This document shows, piece after piece, positions 21,449 to 31,284 of a stretch of 31,284 bases of DNA. Within the stretch, counting starts at the first letter, position 1. Each line of letters starts with the position of its first letter. Source of the stretch: a virus; IMG/VR virus record IMGVR_UViG_3300031963_000629, positions 1 through 31,284 of that record. One strand, 5' to 3'. The notes below the pieces were generated by a model. It had not been told where the DNA came from, made no database searches, and saw only the letters and a program-made list of their open reading frames with translations. The position numbers were made by a program, and so were the translations under genes.

Positions 21449-21543
21449 ACTGGCGCCTCCTCATAATTGTCTGGGTTAAAGGGGACAGGGCGGTTGCCTT
21501 TGTCCTTCGGGTTGGGAAATGGGGGGAAAGGCCAAGTGTTCAT
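21436..21543 (-). CDS. 35-residue proline-rich peptide (candidate)
   Basis: A 35-residue frame, MNTWPFPPFPNPKDKGNRPV then PFNPDNYEEAPVWIP. Its ATG overlaps the upstream stop as ATGA (21540-21543), matching the coupling pattern of the operon, and its end overlaps the TTG peptide. The proline-rich composition is non-random and the frame explains an otherwise empty gap. Function unknown. Confidence 0.5.
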   Translation of the reverse strand: MNTWPFPPFPNPKDKGNRPVPFNPDNYEEAPVWIP

Positions 21544-21833
21544 ATTGTCACCATCAGCACATGGGTTTCAATACGGTCAACCACTGATGCATCCTTACCA
21601 CCAATGTGCCACATGTACTTGCCCAGGGGTGTTCTTGGCATCTTCCAGTCATAGATCGTTGCCACCTGACCATCGCCAAATGTGAGAACCCATTCGCATG
21701 TCGTCTTGTCCCCATTGCGCTCATACGGCAAACCAAAAGCCTCAATGAGGTCCTCATACGTTGTCTCCACATACCCCACAAGGCCTGTGCCATTGCGTTG
21801 ACCACCGCGTGTGAATTGCATTGACTTTTTCAT
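21540..21833 (-). CDS. Conserved phage protein, unknown function
   Basis: A 97-residue protein: MKKSMQFTRGGQRNGTGLVG, YVETTYEDLIEAFGLPYERN, TTCEWVLTFGDGQVATIYDW, WHIGGKDASVVDRIETHVLM. I recognise this TTYEDLIEAFG...ATIYDWK pattern from many phage and prophage accessory proteins of unknown role. It is the first gene after the promoter-like leader at 21835-21895, which carries AAAGGA before the ATG. Possibly an early host-takeover gene. Confidence 0.75.
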   Translation of the reverse strand: MKKSMQFTRGGQRNGTGLVGYVETTYEDLIEAFGLPYERNGDKTTCEWVLTFGDGQVATIYDWKMPRTPLGKYMWHIGGKDASVVDRIETHVLMVTI

Positions 21834-21834
21834 T

Positions 21835-21851
21835 TCTTTCTATCCTTTCTG
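21835..21851 (-). repeat. Leader 17-mer, copy 1 (shared with 30854-30870)
   Basis: The minus strand reads CAGAAAGGATAGAAAGA immediately upstream of the ATG at 21833. The identical 17-mer lies at 30854-30870 upstream of another operon. Both contain the AAGGA ribosome site and lie downstream of a CCATACAAT promoter-like box. The sharing extends beyond a minimal Shine-Dalgarno and suggests a common early leader. Confidence 0.6.
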
Positions 21852-21866
21852 TTGATGTGAGATTTA

Positions 21867-21895
21867 ATTGTATGGTATTTTTCATTTGTCAACAA
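21867..21895 (-). promoter_or_regulatory. Sigma70-like promoter for the small-gene operon
   Basis: Minus strand: -35 TTGTTG (21895-21890), 17-nt spacer, -10 TACAAT (21872-21867) inside CCATACAAT. An overlapping TTGACA (21892-21887) is a better -35 but only 14 nt from this -10. The same CCATACAAT occurs in the second leader at 30902-30910. It overlaps the end of the Ogr-like gene. Confidence 0.5.
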
Positions 21896-22277
21896 GTGTT
21901 TTTGTTTTTTCTTGTAAAAGTTTTTTTGCCTCTCTTGCGCTCATTCTTACATGCGTCTTTCTATTTTCTTTCTGTGTTTTTCTTTTTTCCTCTGCAGCAG
22001 CAAACTTTGCGTGCCTTTTATGTGCCTTTTCTGCATCCTTGGGCAGCATCAATTCTGGGTCTTCCATTCGCAACACAAACTGTCCCTCATCCACATACCT
22101 TATGGATGCGCGCTTGATGAGTTTGCGCAGGAATGTTGCCTCCACTTCATAGGTAGAGAAGCGGTCAAGGCAATCGTCACTCAAACAATACCTGCGCCTC
22201 CATTGCAAATTGTCTTTGGGCGCGGAAAAAGCAACCCTTGTCAACCCACCGCATGTGATGCATTTGATTCCAGCCAT
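21882..22277 (-). CDS. Ogr/Delta-like zinc-finger transcription activator (putative)
   Basis: A 131-residue protein. The first 45 residues form a four-cysteine finger: CITCGG (CxxC), RRRYCLSDDC (C-x4-C) and RFSTYEVEATFLRK. C-x2-C ... C-x4-C followed by F-x-TYE matches the Ogr/Delta family of P2-like phages, whose members activate late promoters; NrdR-type fingers are a second relative. The C-terminal 60 residues are strongly basic (EKAHKRHAKFAAAEEKRKTQ, KENRKTHVRMSAREAKKLLQ) and could contact DNA or RNA polymerase. It starts 2 nt after the polymerase stop with GAGGT upstream. A late-switch role is inferred from the family; the target site is unknown. Confidence 0.55.
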   Translation of the reverse strand: MAGIKCITCGGLTRVAFSAPKDNLQWRRRYCLSDDCLDRFSTYEVEATFLRKLIKRASIRYVDEGQFVLRMEDPELMLPKDAEKAHKRHAKFAAAEEKRKTQKENRKTHVRMSAREAKKLLQEKTKTLVDK

Positions 22278-22279
22278 TG

Positions 22280-24220
22280 TCAGTTCACCTCACCCCATGA
22301 AGGACCAAACTCTGCATCCACCAACAACGGCACCCTCAGCCCTTCAATGGATTGAGTCATAATGCGTTCTATTTCTTCCACCTCTTGCTCCTTGCCCTCA
22401 GGAATGGAGAAGCACAACTCATCATGCACTGTCAACAGCATGGGAATGTCATTCAACACATCCGATGCCTGCAGTTTGACCATTGCCATTTTGATGAGGT
22501 CAGCGGCAGAACCTTGAAGGAGGCGGTTAAGTGCTTTGTGGGTAAATGAACGCCTGATCTTGTTGCCCCATTTCTCTTTGGCGGCCTCATACGGCAGCGC
22601 CTCAAACTCATCCTTCGCACTCGTTGGTTCCCACATGTCAAACCTTGAATACCTACCTGCAAACGTCCTGATGAATCCCCTTTGTGACGCCCGTTGGCTT
22701 GCGAGGTTGTAGATGTCTTTGACAAAGGGAAAAGTGCTGTGGTATTGATTGAAGAGTGGTTTTACATCAGCAAGCTCTCGCCCCAAGTTAGCAGCCAGCG
22801 CCTTTTCGCCCATCCCATACACCAAGCCAAAGTTGATTGACTTGGCTTCCTTTCGTGGCACCCCTGTCAACTCACTCACAAACGCATGGAAATCTGTGTC
22901 TGGATTCGTTCTGTACTGACTGCGGGCAAGGTCTGCTGTTTCCCCTGCTCCGTAGTGTACGAGCATCCGGTATTCGATCTGACTGTAGTCGAAGGATCCC
23001 CATCGAGGATGATGAAGATCAGGAACAAACAGAGAGCGTATAAGCGGACCCAGTTCGGGGTCGCGCGCTGGAATATTTTGTAGGTTAGGAGTGCTACTAG
23101 AGAAGCGACCAGAAACAGTCCCAGACTCATCAGAGCGAAGTGGATGAAATTGTCCATGTATGCGTCCATTTATGTGTGAATTGGTGATGTAAGAGCGGAG
23201 GAAGGTGTCACGCGCTTTGGTGAGTTTGCGGCATTCAGCAATTTCTGGTATGTTCTTCTCCAACCAGTCAGACCTGAATGAGGGGGCGCCTTTGGCAGTT
23301 TTGGGATAAGACAAATGGCGGCTCTTGGCAAGCCGTTCCACATCTTGAGCAGCGTAGATGTTCAACCCACCTAGCGACTTCTCAATGGTTTCAATTCGTG
23401 CACTGAGCCCGTCATCAATCGCCTGCAACTTGTCAAGGTCAACCCTTACCCCATGCCGCCTCATCTGCAACAGCAATGGGATTAAAGCAGTTTCTAGGTT
23501 GAACAGTTCAACCAAGTCATCACGTTGCAAGATTTCTTTTTGTGCATTCCAAATGCGGATAGGCAATGAGGCATCAGCTTCTGCATATGGGCCCACAAGT
23601 ACAGGTGGGCAGCGGTAGATGTTGGCTGCTTGTTTCCGGTCTGCATTGCCACCATACGCCCTGCTTGACCAGTCGTACAAAGCGCTCTCAAGTTTTGTTT
23701 CGCCCAAGTACTTCTTTGCCAATGCATTGAGTGAGTAGCTCTGCGCGTTCTCATCAATGAGGGGCTCTGCCAACTGAACATCACAAATGGGCCCAGCCAC
23801 ATGCACATCTAAAGTGGACAACCAACCCAGGTCATACTGGGAGTTGGCGAAGATGTATTCACGCGCTCTGTCAGACAAGACATCTTGCAAGAAATTGATA
23901 ACCTGTTCCTTGTTCTGATTCTCACCCATCGTGTGAGCAATTGGGAAGTACCAAGCGGCATCAATAGTTGCAATGGAAATGCCTGCCACATACCCATGCC
24001 CCGTTGCCCACCCAGGACCCAAGTCAATCAATTTGGGGTCATAGGTTTCTGTATCTACACCCAGCTGAACCACACTGTCTAAATTCGGGAATTCTCGCAG
24101 TTGCCAGCCCGTGTCCGGTATGGAAGGTAGTGCGCGGTTAGTTTGTTGCTTCGCGCCGCCTTTGGCTGGTTTGACGACCTCAATATCTTCCCAGAACAAT
24201 CCAACTGAATCATGTCTCAT
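22280..24220 (-). CDS. polA: Family A DNA polymerase with 3'-5' exonuclease
   Basis: A 646-residue replicative polymerase. The proofreading domain shows VQLGVDTETYDP (D56, E58), FANSQYDLGWLS (D130) and YAEAD (Exo III). The polymerase domain has motif A SFDYSQIEYRMLVHYG near residue 410, motif B RKEAKSINFGLVYGMGE near 465 and motif C LLTVHDELCF near 598. The residue equivalent to E. coli Phe762 is Phe, as in Pol I and unlike T7 (Tyr). No 5'-3' exonuclease domain is present, as usual for phage enzymes. Its ATG overlaps the clamp-like gene as ATGA, so the two are made together. Confidence 0.95.
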   Translation of the reverse strand: MRHDSVGLFWEDIEVVKPAKGGAKQQTNRALPSIPDTGWQLREFPNLDSVVQLGVDTETYDPKLIDLGPGWATGHGYVAGISIATIDAAWYFPIAHTMGENQNKEQVINFLQDVLSDRAREYIFANSQYDLGWLSTLDVHVAGPICDVQLAEPLIDENAQSYSLNALAKKYLGETKLESALYDWSSRAYGGNADRKQAANIYRCPPVLVGPYAEADASLPIRIWNAQKEILQRDDLVELFNLETALIPLLLQMRRHGVRVDLDKLQAIDDGLSARIETIEKSLGGLNIYAAQDVERLAKSRHLSYPKTAKGAPSFRSDWLEKNIPEIAECRKLTKARDTFLRSYITNSHINGRIHGQFHPLRSDESGTVSGRFSSSTPNLQNIPARDPELGPLIRSLFVPDLHHPRWGSFDYSQIEYRMLVHYGAGETADLARSQYRTNPDTDFHAFVSELTGVPRKEAKSINFGLVYGMGEKALAANLGRELADVKPLFNQYHSTFPFVKDIYNLASQRASQRGFIRTFAGRYSRFDMWEPTSAKDEFEALPYEAAKEKWGNKIRRSFTHKALNRLLQGSAADLIKMAMVKLQASDVLNDIPMLLTVHDELCFSIPEGKEQEVEEIERIMTQSIEGLRVPLLVDAEFGPSWGEVN

Positions 24221-25185
24221 TGACGGACCCCCACAATCATCCCCCGCATCCCCTCCGGGCCTGTGAAAGGACTCGGCGCTGGATAAGTGCTCAGATCCAT
24301 CTTGGTTGCCTCATTGAGCACCTTGCAGATCATCTCTGCCCTAAACCTAGCCTCTGGCAACTCCATGCCTTCAACCGACGCTTTGTGTTCCCCATCCATT
24401 GTGTGTACCCCATCTGCATTGAACACCACCACTGGGAACTTAGGATCTGGATGAAAGTGAGATATCTTGTCTACTGCATCCCGCAACTGTCCGGGAATGG
24501 CTGGCAAGGCGTTGTAGTCATACTTGGCAAGCATCTTTTCAATGTCAGGCCAAGGCAGGCTCATGGGCAACACCCGGCACCAGAAGCCATCGTAGATGAA
24601 ATAGGTGTTCTGATCTTTCTGCACCATGTGCTTGGGATCTTGATTGATGCGCAACAACTCATCCACAGAGGCAGTGGGCAAGGAAAAAGTGTAAGGAGAC
24701 ACAAAAGGCACAGACACCACAACCACATTGTTGGTTGCATACATATGCGTCTTGTCCACAAGAATGGAGCAGGACCAGGGCCTACTCGCATCCTCTGAAA
24801 TAAATGGTGCAATCCGTTTGAGTGCTTTGATGAACCCAGGTGCTACGGGCGTTGGCTCAACTCCCTCTGGTGGCCCGCCAACCTTTGGGTAGTCAGCATT
24901 TGCCATGAGGGGCAAGACAGCTTTAAAGCCAGCTCGTTTGATGGTCAGTTTGTTGTTCTTCTCTGTAATGACTGGTTCCCCATCGCAGGCGTTGACAGCA
25001 CGCAGAAAGCGGGATGCAGGCACAGTTGCATTGACGCCTTTCAACTTCTCACAAAAAGCATCAATAGCAGTGCACCGCCCATCATTGCCCTGGATGTGAC
25101 CATCGTAGATGTGGATGTGGCTGAAGGCAGGCACCAAGGTCTTGTCTGCCACCGTTCCCGCTACCAATTTGATTGTTTCTAGCAT
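24217..25185 (-). CDS. Sliding-clamp-like DNA polymerase processivity factor
   Basis: A 322-residue protein resembling DnaN-type clamps: TLVPAFSHIHIYDGHIQGND and VPASRFLRAVNACDG in the first third, ATNNVVVVSVPF and VDELLRINQDPKH in the middle, and WPDIEKMLAKYDYN with VVFNADGVHTMDGEH in the last third. It is shorter than bacterial DnaN (about 366). I start it at 25185 (MLETIK), 1 nt after the upstream TAA, with GAG upstream; the in-frame start at 25260 would overlap the neighbour by 74 nt. It would ring DNA and tether the polymerase, with which it is translationally coupled. Family assignment is by pattern only. Confidence 0.6.
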   Translation of the reverse strand: MLETIKLVAGTVADKTLVPAFSHIHIYDGHIQGNDGRCTAIDAFCEKLKGVNATVPASRFLRAVNACDGEPVITEKNNKLTIKRAGFKAVLPLMANADYPKVGGPPEGVEPTPVAPGFIKALKRIAPFISEDASRPWSCSILVDKTHMYATNNVVVVSVPFVSPYTFSLPTASVDELLRINQDPKHMVQKDQNTYFIYDGFWCRVLPMSLPWPDIEKMLAKYDYNALPAIPGQLRDAVDKISHFHPDPKFPVVVFNADGVHTMDGEHKASVEGMELPEARFRAEMICKVLNEATKMDLSTYPAPSPFTGPEGMRGMIVGVRQ

Positions 25186-25186
25186 C

Positions 25187-26125
25187 TTATAACTCGAAAA
25201 GTGAATCTTGGAACATGTGATTAGGCTCTGGTAAGGAGTTGTGCCAAGACACAAACTCAAGCCCCGACATCAATCGTCGTGCGTTTTGATCGGTCACAAT
25301 CTGTTCGAGTGTCAGACCGTAACTTGCTGCCCTGTCAATGATTGCTTGTGCTGTGCCTGGGGGCATGTTGCAGATGTGCATTCCTGCATTGTGCCTGTCT
25401 GGGCTCTGGTCAGAGGTTGCAATAGCAGTCAGTCGGCCGTTGTCGTTGAAGTTGACGCGACCCATCACAGCAGTGTAAAGCCAAGTAGCAGAATCTACTG
25501 AATACCAAGGCACTTGTTTCAACATGGTGCCACCAGTAGCAGCCAAGCCGTGGCATTTCTTCCCAGGCAACTTCCGGTGCACGTAGTTTGACCAATTGAC
25601 ACGAGTCCATTCAGGCAAATCGTTCCTAGGTGAGACACAGATGTAGTCAGCCATTTCTGCAACCTCAAACATCCGTTCCTCTGACTCATTCTGGTGAAAC
25701 ACCGGCAACACAATGTCCCCAAACTCCTCCTTCAATATTTTGAAGTTCTCATCTGACGTTTTGATCGCTTGCGCTATTTCCTCAGGCCCCGCTGTCACCC
25801 CAGGCGATCCTGGAATCACATCTAAGTTGATGAGCCACACCTGCACATGCTTGGGAATGAGGGACATGATGTTCTTGTAGACAGAAATCAAATGCTTCAA
25901 GTCAACCCGTTTACCCTTTGACCAAGCGGTGAAGGCGCCACTATCCAACATCATTTCTTGAATAGCAGCGCCATCTATCTTGCACAGGTCTGCCCAGATC
26001 TTCGCCTCCTTCACATAAGCATCGTGGCAGGAGCAGAGGCGATGGGTGAACGCCCTTGCAAGGCGCTGCTTCATCTCATCTGAGCCACCGGTGGTGCCGG
26101 AGAAGAAAAGTTTGACCTTGGACAT
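25187..26125 (-). CDS. dpdA: DpdA-like 7-deazaguanine DNA transglycosylase (TGT family)
   Basis: A 312-residue TGT-like enzyme. Key segments: MMLDSGAFTAWSKGK (D61-S62-G63, equivalent to the DSGG substrate pocket of TGT), VFHQNESEE, CVSPRND, HGLAATGG and WYSVDSATWL (D211, the likely nucleophile position). Phage DpdA proteins exchange guanine in DNA for a 7-deazaguanine base, unlike cellular TGT which acts on tRNA. Six neighbouring genes for the precursor pathway support this reading. It starts 5 nt after the QueF stop with GAG upstream. Specificity (preQ0 or preQ1) cannot be read from the sequence; the presence of QueF favours preQ1. Confidence 0.8.
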   Translation of the reverse strand: MSKVKLFFSGTTGGSDEMKQRLARAFTHRLCSCHDAYVKEAKIWADLCKIDGAAIQEMMLDSGAFTAWSKGKRVDLKHLISVYKNIMSLIPKHVQVWLINLDVIPGSPGVTAGPEEIAQAIKTSDENFKILKEEFGDIVLPVFHQNESEERMFEVAEMADYICVSPRNDLPEWTRVNWSNYVHRKLPGKKCHGLAATGGTMLKQVPWYSVDSATWLYTAVMGRVNFNDNGRLTAIATSDQSPDRHNAGMHICNMPPGTAQAIIDRAASYGLTLEQIVTDQNARRLMSGLEFVSWHNSLPEPNHMFQDSLFEL

Positions 26126-26130
26126 CTCTC

Positions 26131-26832
26131 TTACTCGCCTTCGTGCCAGTATTCAAAGGTGGGCCAGAAGGGAATGCCACCTCTGGGTGTGAACTGCCCC
26201 TCTACCTTCAAATAATTTGGTTGCAACAAGTCAACCAAGGCCTGAGCAATATGTGTCACGCAGGCTTCGTGAAACTCACCTGTCTGACGAAACGAGCCCA
26301 AATACAATTTCCATGCCTTTGACTCCACACACCATTCGCGTGGCTGATACTCCACCACAATGGTTGCAAAATCGGGTTGCCCAGTCAAGGGGCAGAGCGA
26401 TGTGAATTCAGGCGACACAATTTTGATTCGTGTTTCGGCATGTGCGCCTGGGTGGGAAACTGTCAACTTCATTGGGTTGGGAAAGCGTTCAAGCAAAGAT
26501 GCATCTGCACCTTCATACTTGTACCCCGTTTCCTTGCCCAGCGACTGCAGGTGGTCAGCTTTTGAAAGCTGGATTGCGCTATGTGTTGCCATAGGTTCAA
26601 AGTCCTTAAAAAGTGGAATATCAATAGGCCCAGGCACTGCCTCAAGCCCCTCTTTATGCCAAATCCACAAACAGTGCTTGCCTGCTTTGTATTTTTTGAC
26701 ATACCCTTTCTCACCCAGTGCCCAAAGTGACTTGGACACAAGATCTGATGACAATTGCAGTCTTGCTGCTATGTCTTGATTGGTTAGCCAGCCGTGGGGT
26801 CCATGGGATAGGAACCAACGGATGCGGTTCAT
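26131..26832 (-). CDS. queF: Winged-helix / QueF fusion (preQ0 reductase)
   Basis: A 233-residue protein starting at the ATG at 26832, which overlaps the FolE stop as ATGA. Residues 1-80 form a winged-helix domain (WLTNQDIAARLQLSSDLVSK, LWALGEKGYVKKY). Residues 81-233 are a complete unimodular QueF: PEFTSLCPLTGQPDFATI with catalytic Cys147 and Asp154, the family motif ESKAWKLYL, and GEFHEACV (H188, E189) and GQFTPRGGIPF. It reduces preQ0 to preQ1 with NADPH. An inner ATG at 26592 with AAGGA 10 nt upstream could give QueF alone (153 residues, the normal size). A DNA-binding domain on QueF is unusual. Confidence 0.85.
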   Translation of the reverse strand: MNRIRWFLSHGPHGWLTNQDIAARLQLSSDLVSKSLWALGEKGYVKKYKAGKHCLWIWHKEGLEAVPGPIDIPLFKDFEPMATHSAIQLSKADHLQSLGKETGYKYEGADASLLERFPNPMKLTVSHPGAHAETRIKIVSPEFTSLCPLTGQPDFATIVVEYQPREWCVESKAWKLYLGSFRQTGEFHEACVTHIAQALVDLLQPNYLKVEGQFTPRGGIPFWPTFEYWHEGE

Positions 26833-27386
26833 CGACGAACCAGGTCTAACAGTTCTTCTTTGGCGGATCTGTCCCATTCGAAGAGCCCTTTCATTGCTGA
26901 GGTTACAGTGGAGGCACCTTGTCGTTGGATGCCACGAGATTCCATGCACATGTGGCGGCACTCAATAATGACCCCAACCGCTTTGGGTTGGAGTGCATCT
27001 TGAATGGCATTTGCCACCTGACTGGTAAGGCGCTCTTGCACCTGTAGGCGTCTAGCAAACACATCCACTACACGCGATAGTTTGGAGAGACCTACAATCT
27101 TTCCATCTGGGATGTAAGCAACATGAGCCACACCAAAGAAAGGCGCTAGGTGGTGCTCACAATGACTGTAGATGGGAATATCCTTCACCAAAATAATCTG
27201 GTTATAGTCCTCCGCCCCATCCTCAAACGTCTTGAGTATCTCCGCTGGGTCCTCCTTGTACCCGCCCGCCCAATGCTGCCACGCTTTAGCAACACGGATA
27301 GGTGTCTCAATCAAACCGCCCCTGTTCGGGTCTTCCCCAATGACCACTTTTAACAGGTCAGCAACAACAGTTAACTTATCAGGCAT
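26829..27386 (-). CDS. folE: GTP cyclohydrolase I
   Basis: A 185-residue enzyme with the classic signature: [20 protein letters not shown] (zinc ligands C76 and H79), [29 protein letters not shown] and [18 protein letters not shown] (zinc ligand C147). It converts GTP to dihydroneopterin triphosphate, the first step of the 7-deazaguanine pathway. AAGGAG lies 8 nt before the ATG inside the QueC end (8-nt overlap), and its own stop overlaps the QueF start as ATGA. Slightly shorter than the E. coli protein (222). Here it supplies DNA modification rather than folate. Confidence 0.93.
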
Positions 27387-28173
27387 GCCGCATCTCCTTA
27401 ATTTCGTAGATCAACTGACTGTAAAAGTCTTCGTTCTGCAAATAGTTGTCGGTGCCTGGCAACTGCATCAACCCATCCATCCATGCGCGGATGACCAAGG
27501 GGTCTGGCAACTCCGCCTCCTCAAACCCCTTTGCCCGCAACACATTGGCATGGTTCATGTCCGTTGGTGGGTACTTGCCGTCATAAGATGTGTGGGTGTA
27601 AGCAAGAGCGGCGTAGCCTCCTGCCTCTCTCATCATCCTGATGCTGTCCGCTTTTGTGCTGTCAATCAACGGGGCGATAAGGTGCAGGTGAGCAATGCCC
27701 AGCGACTCGTTAGCCATTTGCTCGTACGAAAGTCTAAAATCGTCAGTGCAATCGGGGTAGTTCGCGTTGTCAGCTTGGCATATGCCAGTAACAAGGGTGA
27801 AGCAATCAGCAACAATGGCACGATTGGCAGCAACGGTAAAGAAGAGTGTATTTCGCATCGGTACGAAGGTGAGTTCCACCCGGTTGCCAATAATTTTGTC
27901 CATAGTTTCGTAGTCATCATATTGCTCCAAAAGTTGAGAAGAATCGGTCAGTGGTGAACGCCCTTTGAGGATGGGACCGAGTTCCACTACCTCATGGGAT
28001 GCACAGCCAGCGATTCGGGCAACCTTGCGTGCTGCCTCTATCTCCAAACTGTGGCGTTGGTTGTAGTCAAAGGTGACAGCATGCACTTCCTTGTAGTTTT
28101 GCTTTGCAAGGAATAAGCAGGTTGTCGAATCTTGTCCGCCAGACAAGATGACCATCGCTTTTTGTTTCAACAT
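27379..28173 (-). CDS. queC: 7-cyano-7-deazaguanine (preQ0) synthase without zinc cysteines
   Basis: A 264-residue QueC. The PP-loop SGGQDSTTC (residues 11-19), [46 protein letters not shown] and the STKADSI segment all fit. It turns CDG into preQ0 with ATP and ammonia. The usual four-cysteine zinc cluster near the C-terminus (C...CGxCxxC) is replaced by [20 protein letters not shown] followed by [13 protein letters not shown], so none of the four cysteines remains although the flanking residues are kept. AAGGA about 10 nt before the ATG supports the start. It lies between QueD and FolE in the cassette. Confidence 0.9.
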
Positions 28174-28177
28174 ATCT

Positions 28178-28633
28178 TCAGTTTCCTTTTCCTAAGTAAA
28201 TTGCTGAATTCGCACCGTGTTCTCTCACCTCTGCACTCACCACTCGGCAACGTGGCTCATACCCCGCCTCTCTCAACCACTCATAGGCCAAGCCGTAGGC
28301 AAACTCTGCAAACTTCTCACACCCAATCTCATCCATGACGATGATATCTGCAATGCCCCTTTTCTGAGCCTCCACATACCAATCCATATTGGGGTCATCT
28401 TTGGCAACCAGTGTCCGGTGGTCAAAGTAGTGCTCAAGCTTGGCACGCAACTTTTTCAAGCTACCAAAGTCAACCACCCAATGGTTCTCATCTAGCTCTG
28501 TTGCCTCAAACTCAAACTTAATGGACAAGGCGTAGCCATGCAGTTTGTTGCAATGGCTTTTCGCCCGCCATTGACGGAAACAAGCGCTGAGGCCAATCTC
28601 ATGCCCGTAGGTCTTTGTGGATCTGAAAGTCAT
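28178..28633 (-). CDS. queD: 6-carboxytetrahydropterin synthase
   Basis: A 151-residue QueD. It contains [20 protein letters not shown] with catalytic Cys28 and His32, [16 protein letters not shown], the HYFDHRTL segment with D71-H72, and [14 protein letters not shown] with Glu138. It makes 6-carboxytetrahydropterin from dihydroneopterin triphosphate. The zinc site is altered from the E. coli pattern: the expected HGH is HGY, and Cys18 stands where the first His would be. I recognise this HGY form from other phages and proteobacteria. The ATG at 28633 overlaps the QueE stop as ATGA; the upstream in-frame start at 28690 would overlap QueE by 61 nt and is less likely. Confidence 0.88.
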
Positions 28634-29334
28634 GGTAGTCCAATCATTTTGTGAAGTTGTAAAGTTAGGCGGTGCCCATGGGTCATGCAAAGGGCAGCCG
28701 CGTATTCAGTGTTCTCTTTCGTCTTATCCCAATCAACAGTTTTGTCTTCATGGTACTCCATCATCGGTTGCAACCACACAGTGCCTTTGCGTGCTCTGTA
28801 AAGCATCAACTCTTTGTGATCTTGTGTAGACATGTTGGGCAACCCATCTGCCTCACTGCATTCGCCTTTTCGCACAATGTACTTCCAATCAAAGCAGTAA
28901 CGAACAAAGCCAGAATGGACAGTGCCCGTTTTTGGAGAACAGACAATGCTCACAAGTTTTGCCTCCACCAAGTCCTCCATCCCATCTTGCCACAAAGTGC
29001 CCGCTGTCTCAATCTGAATCTTCACATTGTTTGCCGCTATCAACACATTGCAAAGGTCGAGAAGGTTTTGACGGAAGGGCTCACCACCTGTGATGACCAC
29101 GAGATCGCACTTGTAAGCGGCGCACGCCTCGGCAATTTCCTGCGCTGTCATGTAGGTAGTGGAACTCTCAAAATCGGTATCACAGAAGTGGCACCGGAGG
29201 TTGCAACCACCCAGTCGGACAAACACCGCTGGCATTCCCGCCAATGGTCCCTCTCCCTGAATGGTGTAGAAGATTTCTTGCACCCAGAAGGTGTCTTTAA
29301 TCTCCCTTTTCATAATCTTATTCTTCCCGAACAT
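28630..29334 (-). CDS. queE: 7-carboxy-7-deazaguanine synthase (radical SAM)
   Basis: A 234-residue radical SAM enzyme with CNLRCHFC (C44, C48, C51), GGEP at 83-86, and the QueE opening EIFYTIQGEGPLAGMPAVFV. It converts carboxytetrahydropterin to CDG. The start at 29334 has AAGGA 7 nt upstream and overlaps the winged-helix gene by 17 nt; an alternative ATG at 29313 (MKREIKD) would avoid the overlap. First gene of the 7-deazaguanine run. The C-terminal portion (TVWLQPMMEYHEDKTVDWDK) is somewhat longer than in small QueE proteins. Confidence 0.92.
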   Translation of the reverse strand: MFGKNKIMKREIKDTFWVQEIFYTIQGEGPLAGMPAVFVRLGGCNLRCHFCDTDFESSTTYMTAQEIAEACAAYKCDLVVITGGEPFRQNLLDLCNVLIAANNVKIQIETAGTLWQDGMEDLVEAKLVSIVCSPKTGTVHSGFVRYCFDWKYIVRKGECSEADGLPNMSTQDHKELMLYRARKGTVWLQPMMEYHEDKTVDWDKTKENTEYAAALCMTHGHRLTLQLHKMIGLP

Positions 29335-29530
29335 GGATGAATCCTTTTCTTAATAAAACTGAGAGGTGCCGGTTGATGTCTTTCTCCTCCATTCCAAATC
29401 CAACCCGCGCATATCTTACCAAATCTTTCTGGTCAATGCCAGCAGCTCCTGCCGCCTGTACCTTGTCCAACACTATCCTTGAATCACCGTTGCCAGCACG
29501 GATAGGTGGACGGGAGAGATAATACCTCAT
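29318..29530 (-). CDS. Small winged-helix-like protein, unknown function
   Basis: A 70-residue protein from the ATG at 29530 (an in-frame GTG lies one codon upstream). IVLDKVQAAGAAGIDQKDLV and MEEKDINRHLSVLLRKGFIH read as a winged helix with a RKGFIHVREE wing. It lies between DUF932 and the queE-dpdA block and overlaps queE by 17 nt, so it is probably co-transcribed. A cassette regulator is a plausible but untested role. Confidence 0.6.
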   Translation of the reverse strand: MRYYLSRPPIRAGNGDSRIVLDKVQAAGAAGIDQKDLVRYARVGFGMEEKDINRHLSVLLRKGFIHVREE

Positions 29531-29546
29531 CACCCCCGCCCTTTCC

Positions 29547-30524
29547 TTACGCTGCTACCAATTGGTTGGCAAGGTTGACTGCCAACTCCTTAGTTGTCTG
29601 ACCGTCACCAAACCATGCACGGTCGATGCGAACATCATCAGTGCGACCACGGTGGTGATCTACATGCTCAGTCACAGCATTGATGAGGCCCCAAACTGTC
29701 TTGCGTGCTGCCTCCAAATCTGAACCCATGCCGCGACCTTGATACAAGTCAAACAGTGCGTCAACTGTCTTGGGGCTAACTACCTCATCACCTTTCTCAT
29801 TGGTGTAGGTGGAAACTGCGCTGAAGAAATTGTGCGCCTGGTCATTGTCAACTTTTGTCTTGCTCCACACATCCACTGACTTGATGAATGAATCCCATGA
29901 GGTAGCAGCCAGACCCAACTGCGCCTTGACCTTGGTCTCGTTGAAGTTGCTTCTGTGGTTGATGCGGACAATGCGTTGGCCTTTGTTTGCACCGGTACCC
30001 TCAACTGCGAAAGTCAATGTGTTGTTGCACACCACACGGATGCTTGTGAACATAGCGACAGTTGACATTGAACCGTCACAGGCTGTGCCCAACAACAAGT
30101 AGCCCTTGATTGTGTCGTCCAACACCTTTGCCTCTTGACCCATATTGGCAAGTGCCCAGTATTTGCGACCATCGCGCAGGACACCAGCAGTCTCCATTTG
30201 AAAACCAGCGCTCTCAGTCAAGTCGCGATAAAACTCCAACACCTCACCTGGTTGCACAACTTTGTAGTTGCGTGAAACCACACCAAGTGCTTTCTGGTTG
30301 TCAGAGCGGACCAGCACCTTGCGGTCAGGCACTGTCAAGATGTTGCCATCATTTGTTTCGAAGAGCACATCTTTGCTCTCCAAGCTGAAGTTCATGCCAG
30401 CAGCATACTTCCATTCGTCAATTGTCTTGCCAGCTTCCATTTTCTGACCCAGGCCATGCCAAGGTGTTTCGCCTACATAGGCCATTGCTGCTTTGCCAGT
30501 GGTGAAGTCGATTTCGTGTGCCAT
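29547..30524 (-). CDS. DUF932 / TIGR03299-type phage protein
   Basis: A 325-residue protein: AAMAYVGETPWHGLGQKMEA, VLVRSDNQKALGVVSRNYKV, VQPGEVLEFYRDLTESAGFQ, then SIRVVCNNTLTFAV. This is the standard profile of the DUF932 (phage/plasmid-like, TIGR03299) family, of unknown function, common in phages and plasmids with their own replication genes. AAGGA lies about 9 nt before the ATG. It follows the coiled-coil gene in the first operon of the window. Confidence 0.88.
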   Translation of the reverse strand: MAHEIDFTTGKAAMAYVGETPWHGLGQKMEAGKTIDEWKYAAGMNFSLESKDVLFETNDGNILTVPDRKVLVRSDNQKALGVVSRNYKVVQPGEVLEFYRDLTESAGFQMETAGVLRDGRKYWALANMGQEAKVLDDTIKGYLLLGTACDGSMSTVAMFTSIRVVCNNTLTFAVEGTGANKGQRIVRINHRSNFNETKVKAQLGLAATSWDSFIKSVDVWSKTKVDNDQAHNFFSAVSTYTNEKGDEVVSPKTVDALFDLYQGRGMGSDLEAARKTVWGLINAVTEHVDHHRGRTDDVRIDRAWFGDGQTTKELAVNLANQLVAA

Positions 30525-30542
30525 GATGATTTTCCTTAAAGA

Positions 30543-30854
30543 TTAGTAAACAATTTGAACATTTGCGCGAGGGGTAGTTTCTGCAGACATAATGTCTTTA
30601 GTCACTGTGGTGTACTTGGTGACAAGTTCTTCTGGAGCGTTGAGCTCTTTGGCAACCTTTGCCCATGCAACAGATTTGCGCTCCGCTGTGTGCTTAACAG
30701 TAGTAGTGAACAGGTCACCCACATATGTACCTGCACCCAACAACTTGATCTGGTTTTTCAAATCTTCTTGCTGTTCGCGTAATTGCTCAATTTGGTCCTC
30801 AATGAGGCCCAGGCGATCTACTAATTCCAAAGTGTTGCTTACTGCGTGTGACAT
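30543..30854 (-). CDS. Coiled-coil protein, unknown function
   Basis: A 103-residue protein starting at 30854, where AAAGGATAGAAAG precedes the ATG (part of the shared leader 17-mer). Residues about 8-40 are a coiled coil (LVDRLGLIEDQIEQLREQQE); then come a TVKHTAERKSVAWAKVAKEL segment and a C-terminal strand (PRANVQIVY). The in-frame upstream ATG at 30881 lacks a ribosome site. It resembles small phage proteins often annotated only as hypothetical. First gene of the transcript that leads to the queE-dpdA cassette. Confidence 0.7.
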   Translation of the reverse strand: MSHAVSNTLELVDRLGLIEDQIEQLREQQEDLKNQIKLLGAGTYVGDLFTTTVKHTAERKSVAWAKVAKELNAPEELVTKYTTVTKDIMSAETTPRANVQIVY

Positions 30855-30870
30855 CTTTCTATCCTTTCTG
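30854..30870 (-). repeat. Leader 17-mer, copy 2 (shared with 21835-21851)
   Basis: Minus strand CAGAAAGGATAGAAAGA, identical to the copy before the gene at 21833. Its last base is the A of the start codon of the coiled-coil gene, and it carries the ribosome site. Confidence 0.6.
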
Positions 30871-30901
30871 GTTTCTGACATTTACTTTGTCATTGCTGTC
30901 C

Positions 30902-30929
30902 ATTGTATGGCAAAAAAGGTATACATCAA
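30902..30929 (-). promoter_or_regulatory. Sigma70-like promoter for the modification/replication operon
   Basis: Minus strand: -35 TTGATG (30929-30924), 16-nt spacer, -10 TACAAT (30907-30902) within CCATACAAT. The surrounding 88-nt gap is AT-rich. Transcription would begin near 30895 and lead through the coiled-coil, DUF932, queE-dpdA, clamp and polymerase genes. Confidence 0.55.
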
Positions 30930-30969
30930 TAACTTTTTTGATTATTTTCAACAATTGTTTTTATCGTCT

Positions 30970-31284
30970 CTAGATTGGCAATTGGAAAAACCTATTGGTC
31001 TGGGGCTGGACAATGTGCAAGCACCTCCGTGCACGGGTAACTCCCACATACATCACCCGCCTCTCTGCATCTGGATTTGCCAGGTATTCGAGGTTGGTTT
31101 TTCTTGCCTGATCTAAATGCAACACCACATTCTCCGCCTCCCCTCCCTTCACCCCGTGAATGGTGTTCACATGCACCTCTGGTTTGCTTGTAAATGCCTC
31201 CGATCCGTAGATGCGAAGTATGGACAAATAGTACTCAATGTCATCCGATGAGATGGCCTTGAATGCATCATGCCAAATGGCATC
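30970..31284 (-). CDS. UvrD/Rep-like helicase, C-terminal end (5' end outside window)
   Basis: An open frame from the right edge to the stop at 30970, 104 residues: DAIWHDAFKAISSDDIEYYL, then VNTIHGVKGGEAENVVLHLD and RRVMYVGVTRARRCLHIV, ending QTNRFFQLPI. These are helicase motifs V (TIHGVKGGEA) and VI (YVGVTRAR) of superfamily 1 UvrD/Rep/PcrA-type helicases. The N-terminal ATPase motifs must lie beyond the window. The TTG at 31227 is not the start; the frame continues upstream to the edge. It likely unwinds DNA for replication or recombination. Confidence 0.85.
   Translation of the reverse strand, partial: DAIWHDAFKAISSDDIEYYLSILRIYGSEAFTSKPEVHVNTIHGVKGGEAENVVLHLDQARKTNLEYLANPDAERRVMYVGVTRARRCLHIVQPQTNRFFQLPI

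Follow-up and report, generated by a model that had tools for sequence, protein, structure and literature searches.

A conserved C-terminal tail in a phage DpdA suggests that predicted preQ1 insertion into DNA is coupled to the sliding clamp

The stretch of DNA analysed here, referred to below as the window, is IMG/VR virus record IMGVR_UViG_3300031963_000629 (positions 1 to 31,284; a linear record of 31,284 bases), which carries the genes of a predicted 7-deazaguanine DNA-modification cassette. Genes for a terminase, a portal and head and tail proteins identify the source as a tailed phage, a virus of bacteria that is known from environmental sequence only. On the minus strand, a small winged-helix-like open reading frame (ORF) is followed by the genes for QueE, QueD, QueC, FolE, QueF and DpdA, and then by those for a sliding clamp and a family A DNA polymerase (Table 1). 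From QueE to the polymerase, neighbouring genes overlap by 4-8 nucleotides (nt) or are separated by gaps of 1-5 nt, and the six cassette genes are intact, with no internal stops. Pfam and PHROGs searches returned the names and coordinates that a sequence-only reading of the window had given to the cassette, and the matches to phrog_947 and PF00476 bore out its placing of clamp and polymerase genes directly afterwards. That gene list was correct as far as it went, but it lacked the small ORF, an N-terminal extension of QueF and the C-terminal tail of DpdA. Related IMG/VR contigs, L010 and L011 among them, have this gene order too, so the cassette is not a chance reading (L-numbers are labels of the DpdA/QueF loci compared, mostly IMG/VR contigs).

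Table 1. Features of the cassette and its neighbours, in order of transcription (aa, amino acids)
Feature	Position	Strand	Basis or remark
Small ORF, 71 aa, winged-helix-like	29318..29533	-	first gene of the run; 17-nt overlap with queE
QueE	28630..29334	-	phrog_2076 8e-46, PF04055 4e-13; CNLRCHFC read in the sequence
QueD, 6-carboxytetrahydropterin synthase, 151 aa	28178..28633	-	PF01242 4.5e-16, phrog_2389 8e-41
QueC, preQ0 synthase, 264 aa	27379..28173	-	PF06508 1.1e-46, phrog_1550 3.6e-52
FolE, GTP cyclohydrolase I	26829..27386	-	PF01227 1.1e-70, phrog_2197 5e-75
QueF with N-terminal winged-helix-like extension, 233 aa	26131..26832	-	PF14489 2e-28; QueF part 26131-26592
AAGGA, candidate internal ribosome binding site	26603..26607	-	10 nt before the internal ATG at 26590-26592
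DpdA, TGT-like DNA transglycosylase, 312 aa	25187..26125	-	phrog_887 9e-42; tRNA-guanine transglycosylase (TGT) fold in the model
DpdA C-terminal tail QDSLFEL, candidate clamp-binding motif	25190..25210	-	tail conservation
Sliding clamp / DNA polymerase processivity factor	24217..25185	-	phrog_947 1.5e-49
Polymerase N-terminal motif DSVGLFWED, second candidate clamp-binding peptide	24185..24211	-	pattern [DN]xx[GN][LMFVI][FWA]W[EQDT]
Family A DNA polymerase	22280..24220	-	PF00476 6e-61, phrog_17 2e-106

Eight IMG/VR contigs (L002-L009), several of which nearly duplicate one another or the window, encode QueF proteins 91-100% identical to that of the window over the full length. L010 and L011 have the same gene order, and their proteins from QueE to the polymerase show 56-82% identity across the parts that align. 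Judged by QueF and DpdA, the closest cultured phages are Pan1, R26L and R5C. The combination of FolE and QueF with DpdA, which the sequence-only reading had singled out as special, is already known, for example from Dp-1 and R5C (PMC6884629); R26L and Pan1 also carry these genes. In Streptococcus phage Dp-1, the QueF, QueC, QueD, QueE, FolE and DpdA genes lie together, the third gene downstream of dpdA encodes a DnaN-type clamp, and dPreQ1 has been measured in the phage DNA (PMC6884629). Dp-1 differs from the window in its gene order, its QueF without extension, its QueT gene and its Gram-positive host. Dinoroseobacter phages R5C and R26L and Pseudanabaena phage Pan1 share the QueC, FolE, QueF, DpdA order of the window, have QueD, QueE, clamp and PolA genes in the vicinity and give QueF matches of 50-55% identity, but their DpdAs have 430-433 aa, further genes intervene and the clamp lies 2.3-3.3 kb downstream of dpdA. 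Enterobacteria phages CAjan and 9g have DpdA with preQ0 genes and a clamp directly or one small gene downstream. CAjan dpdA is essential for modification, and the modified nucleosides are dPreQ0 in CAjan and dG+ in 9g, in contrast to the preQ1 predicted for the window phage (PMC6884629). No queF was annotated in the CAjan stretch examined. Four further phage deazaguanines were reportedly described in a 2023 paper in Nucleic Acids Research.

The enzymes for preQ0, FolE, QueD, QueE and QueC, are all present by their Pfam and PHROGs matches and would convert GTP to preQ0 in a pathway belonging to the phage itself. QueF would then reduce preQ0 to preQ1. Among solved structures, the window QueF has its best matches in QueF reductases (4f8b at 1.2e-30) and matches the archaeosine synthase QueF-L 5jyx at 0.027. 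Residues C147, D154, E170, S171, K172, K175, H188 and E189 are invariant in all nine aligned sequences, and we take them to comprise the catalytic Cys/Asp and His/Glu and the NADPH motif ESKxxK. QueF-L was set aside as an identity on account of the E-values and the presence of the NADPH motif. Gat-QueC was likewise set aside for QueC, a 264-aa protein with its QueC match at residues 5-220 and no separate amidotransferase domain; further Pfam matches with E-values as high as 0.1, such as Asn_synthase, ThiI and NAD_synthase, overlap the same residues. Since QueF has the residues and matches of a reductase and QueC lacks an amidotransferase domain, preQ1 is the best prediction for the base in the phage DNA. 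dPreQ1 was found in Dp-1 and HVTV-1, both of which carry QueF-family genes (Hutinet et al., PMC6884629).

Some minor points concern individual enzymes of the pathway. The TTG start listed for QueD at 28690 is probably wrong, and we prefer the ATG at 28633 because it overlaps the queE stop by 4 nt. In most phage QueDs listed, the first zinc His of Escherichia coli QueD is replaced by F or Y and HGH by HGY; HGH is retained in L039, L083, L092 and L151. If these are the zinc-ligand positions, as we assume, two of the three ligands seem to be replaced in most of the listed proteins. A gene at 18932-19573 matches phrog_3704 "ferredoxin" (3.6e-74), and its product could possibly serve as an electron source for the radical-SAM enzyme QueE.

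DpdA matched no Pfam family above the cut-off, and PDB sequence and profile searches with it found no relative and no TGT, returning one chance-level kinase match. An AlphaFold2 model built from 30 aligned phage sequences was confident (predicted local distance difference test, pLDDT, 88.6; predicted template modelling score 0.86). In a Foldseek search with this model, the first 19 PDB matches were all TGTs, the archaeosine and mouse enzymes among them, and the best solved fold was human TGT with RNA (7nq4; Z 20.0 over 272 residues, root-mean-square deviation 3.3 A). D61 (in DSGAF), D102 and D211 are invariant in 30/30 aligned rows. The structural comparison thus agrees with the earlier description of the protein as TGT-like, and a match to an unrelated TIM barrel was not seen. 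The DpdA of Salmonella Montevideo, a bacterial DNA 7-deazaguanine transglycosylase of solved structure (7UI4; PMC12137116), was not among the sequence or fold matches listed for the phage DpdA. When L188 was used to look for another DpdA group, the phage groups already seen made up most of the list. Because the protein families and the confident DpdA model agree, exchange of guanine for preQ1 in the phage DNA is expected: DpdA would swap selected guanines for preQ1, and the modified DNA would be poorly cut by host restriction enzymes. The TGT fold is also what would be found if the cassette modified host tRNA with queuosine instead of phage DNA. We consider this very improbable, as the relatives CAjan, 9g and Dp-1 modify DNA by experiment (PMC6884629) and searches of the PDB with the DpdA profiles hit no TGT sequence. 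The cassette and its predicted product, preQ1, as given in the sequence-only reading, are thus supported by the fold of DpdA, the reductase features of QueF and the lack of an amidotransferase domain in QueC.

The window DpdA ends in QDSLFEL, and an LF pair close to the C-terminus is conserved among phage DpdAs. The DpdAs of L010 and L011, 67-68% identical to it overall, end in QDSLFDL; the tails of R5C, R26L and Pan1 are QVSLF, QQYLLGDL and QQYLFGGL, and those of the experimentally studied DpdAs of CAjan, 9g and Dp-1 are VMELF, LQDLFDE and QRRLF. Across 40 loci found by profile search, tails such as QEGLFEL, TMTLFDL, EVGLFDL, EQSLFGL and QTSLFD recur in DpdAs 36-47% identical to that of the window. 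In a second DpdA group, LF lies in the last seven residues of 73/77 complete proteins, the exceptions being QELY (two), DLYGMLQ and a displaced DLF. Counted over distinct C-termini, LF occurs in the last eight residues of 80/94 DpdAs compared to 5/411 control proteins from the same loci (QueE 0/75, QueD 1/58, QueC 2/69, FolE 0/93, QueF 0/7, clamp 2/85 and PolA 0/24; Fisher p 1e-71, a value inflated by relatedness). Among crudely called ORFs of the DpdA loci, the tail was present in 19 of the 29 called DpdAs and in 16 of the 784 other ORFs. With one representative per 50%-identity cluster the DpdA count was 12/19 (p 1e-14 against the same 784), and at 40% identity 4/10 clusters had the tail. 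This ORF calling recovered 29 of 40 DpdAs and, in a scan of six phage genomes, missed those of PaMx25 and PSASB_03, probably through a preference for overlapping frames; in that scan, LF was in the last seven residues of eight of 438 ORFs, four of them DpdA.

The full comparison comprised 131 DpdA rows, from which L064-L067 (weak matches, tail-less) and three cut-off DpdAs had been dropped. LF was present in 117 rows and an LY- or LL-like pair in eight; the remaining six were Hilltopfarm, Mufasa8, phi38:2, L055, L063 and L061, in which SLF lies ten residues before the C-terminus. As repeated contigs remain among these rows, the counts by cluster and distinct tail were used above. Thirteen loci from bacterial and archaeal genomes (prophage and chromosome pooled) had LF in the last six residues in L179, L180, L182, L185 and L186 and not in the other eight, L179 being apparently the contig of L042. 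Within the alignment, L309 and F310 are kept in 27/30 rows and columns 295-308 in at most 10/30, and the end of the DpdA model is floppy (pLDDT 52 for residues 301-310 and 40 for 311-312). The isolated conservation of L and F on a floppy end suggests a short docking motif carried on a linker.

The beta-clamp-binding consensus is Q-phi-x-[L/M]-[F/L], in which Q is helpful and not essential (PMC13254535), and T4 clamp partners have hydrophobic-acidic C-terminal epitopes, with a divergent linker in gp55 (PMC2988020). QVSLF of R5C is a complete fit to the consensus, and QDSLF of the window fits at Q1, L4 and F5. The tail is associated with phages that carry a clamp: in 23 cultured DpdA phages, it was found in 17/19 with a phrog_947 clamp and in 0/4 without one (p 0.0017), these four being Mufasa8, Hilltopfarm, Funsized and Sonali. 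Such clamp-less phages retain a tail-less DpdA, so the enzyme does not require the tail in general. A clamp was detected in 26/31 IMG/VR records (four of the 31 being weak matches). L059 has one by tblastn (the same contig as L013), and in L061 a clamp was looked for and not found. The clamp match starts no more than 500 nt after dpdA in 17/25 measured IMG/VR loci, some of which are near-duplicates, and within 3.3 kb in the others.

These observations suggest that the flexible xxLF tail of DpdA docks in the peptide pocket of the phage clamp encoded by the next gene, which would hold DpdA at new DNA so that bases are exchanged at or just behind the replication fork. We consider it likely that the phage makes its own preQ1 and that a clamp-tethered DpdA inserts it in step with replication. 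Exchange soon after synthesis had been proposed from gene order alone; the DpdA tail gives this idea independent support, although not proof. A comparable arrangement exists in T4, where another phage DNA-modifying enzyme, alpha-glucosyltransferase, binds the phage clamp gp45 (PMC13216743). The T4 enzyme is unrelated and its chemistry differs, and its clamp interaction was measured whereas that of DpdA is predicted. In the open-access papers searched, some of which were judged by title, we found no prior description of a conserved xxLF tail of phage DpdAs resembling clamp-binding motifs or of the QueF extension considered below, nor a paper linking DpdA to a sliding clamp; the word "clamp" is absent from Hutinet et al. 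and from the MED16 and MMDA13 papers.

Several observations weigh against tethering. The likeness to the clamp motif is partial, since only 16/94 distinct tails combine [LM]F with a Q in the consensus position, many others being of the VQELF type, and position 2 of the window motif is D and not aliphatic. The tails of R26L, L049, L055, L058, L059, L061, L062, L063, L103, L117 and L139 deviate, and a relaxed motif, [LMF][FYL] within the last eight residues, is less telling, occurring in 87/94 DpdAs and also in 59/93 FolEs. Among the clamp-bearing cultured phages, R26L has LL for LF and phi38:2 has a tail-less DpdA. The 23 cultured phages were hand-picked for spread from at least 165 records, and EC151, Funsized and Sonali, which fit, were added after the pattern had been seen. 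The clamp-less phages represent few independent events, as all infect Mycobacterium or Arthrobacter. In T4, how much modification there is does not depend mainly on the contact of alpha-glucosyltransferase with gp45 (PMC13216743). The DpdA mutations by which Bas24 escapes GrwAB lie in the active site or on the DNA-binding surface, with no tail change among those reported (PMC12137116), a result that is neutral to mildly unfavourable.

With the same cassette, DpdA could instead act on any double-stranded phage DNA, uncoupled from replication, and the LF tail could be a dimer contact, a protease signal or a hook for the host clamp. Such uncoupled action would accommodate the T4 result, the escape mutants and the phages that lack a clamp and retain DpdA without the tail, and binding of the tail to the clamp is itself predicted from sequence. 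We nevertheless regard it as unlikely, given that the tail is floppy in the model and resembles known clamp peptides, that it is absent in 4/4 clamp-less cultured phages and that a clamp gene usually lies close after dpdA. Whether modification takes place during or after replication is stated to be unknown for phage MED16 (PMC8306585). A short, removable tail in an E. coli laboratory phage would make the timing of modification relative to replication directly testable. If clamp tethering is correct, base exchange in phages would share the toolbelt logic of the T4 glucosyltransferase-clamp contact, and a simple sequence mark would separate clamp-coupled DpdAs from others.

Further peptides resembling clamp motifs were seen in these phages. 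A peptide resembling D-x-x-G-[L/M]-F-W-[E/Q] is common at the N-terminus of phage family A polymerases, that of CAjan included (MRTDAIGFFWQD), and the pattern given in Table 1 was found in 20/28 distinct phage polymerases, several of them near-identical; this peptide is perhaps the polymerase's own clamp hook. In Cellulophaga phage phi38:2, the cysteine-rich gp53 (L070:5338-5991) is encoded between QueF and the short DpdA that lacks the tail, and the C-terminus of gp53, QVNLF, is almost a perfect clamp motif. A YkgJ-family gene adjoins dpdA in Pan1, without a QVNLF-like end. The GrpE-like protein of R5C (L025:6491-7036), a phage that has a clamp, contains a clamp-motif-like DDLSLF in its C-terminal region.

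The window QueF carries an N-terminal extension of ~80 residues, the first ~64 of which give weak winged-helix matches (MarR_2 0.0039; 17.8 bits against a cut-off of 27). The AlphaFold2 model of the extended protein (pLDDT 45.7) was too low in confidence for use. In all eight close relatives whose QueF is complete (L002-L009, some of them nearly identical), the extension is in frame, and in five relatives the ratio of non-synonymous to synonymous substitution rates is 0.10-0.39 for residues 2-64 compared to 0.03-0.05 in the QueF part. This purifying selection indicates that the extension is very probably translated and kept. The candidate ribosome binding site AAGGA precedes an internal ATG, and the 30 nt before this ATG are identical at 29/30 positions in 5/5 compared sequences, which suggests that internal initiation may also yield plain QueF without the extension. 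The QueFs of L010 and L011 begin at the start of the QueF part. In L007 and L008, the first ATG is replaced by ATA, so the start of their long form is uncertain. We discounted DIPLF, in the linker of QueF, as another clamp motif, as the nearly invariant DNA around the candidate ribosome binding site explains its conservation equally well.

Two functions for the extension are about equally open. It may target QueF to DNA, in which case DpdA would insert preQ0 and QueF would reduce it there to preQ1. The in-frame conservation under purifying selection is consistent with this order of events, and Hutinet et al. leave it unresolved whether the free or the DNA-bound base is reduced (PMC6884629). 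Reduction after insertion nevertheless appears doubtful to us: the QueFs of L010/L011, Dp-1, R5C and Pan1 lack the extension, the winged-helix match and model are weak, the candidate internal start would yield plain QueF as well, and L007 and L008 have ATA in place of the first ATG. The extension may otherwise be a transcription regulator of the operon, as its weak Pfam and PHROGs matches include MarR-type and other regulators. Promoter-like sites in 21500-31284 were fewer than in shuffled sequences (6 compared to 9.1), and no operator search was made; we hold regulation to be just as tentative. The extended QueF is a natural test case for free versus DNA-bound reduction of preQ0. A wider proposal would be that phage DpdAs of Streptococcus, enteric, Vibrio, Rhizobium and marine hosts are generally clamp-tethered through a terminal xxLF and tail-less where there is no clamp, and that QueF of the window clade gained a DNA-targeting domain and finishes the modification on DNA; taken as a whole, this is speculative.

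The small winged-helix-like ORF at the head of the run has weak Pfam matches below the cut-off (Rpc34 6.5e-4, z-alpha 0.035). It is present in six close relatives at 83-99% identity, and no match was found in L010 or L011 at E 1e-4. Directly after the polymerase, an ORF at 21882-22277 encodes a zinc ribbon resembling the NrdR N-terminus (2.8e-5, below the cut-off) and recurs in relatives whose stretch extends that far. At the other end of the window, a long run of short direct repeats (945-2440), ACC/GCC-rich on the plus strand, lies within the minus-strand ORF 2-2512, which matches PHROGs of virion-structural and unknown function.

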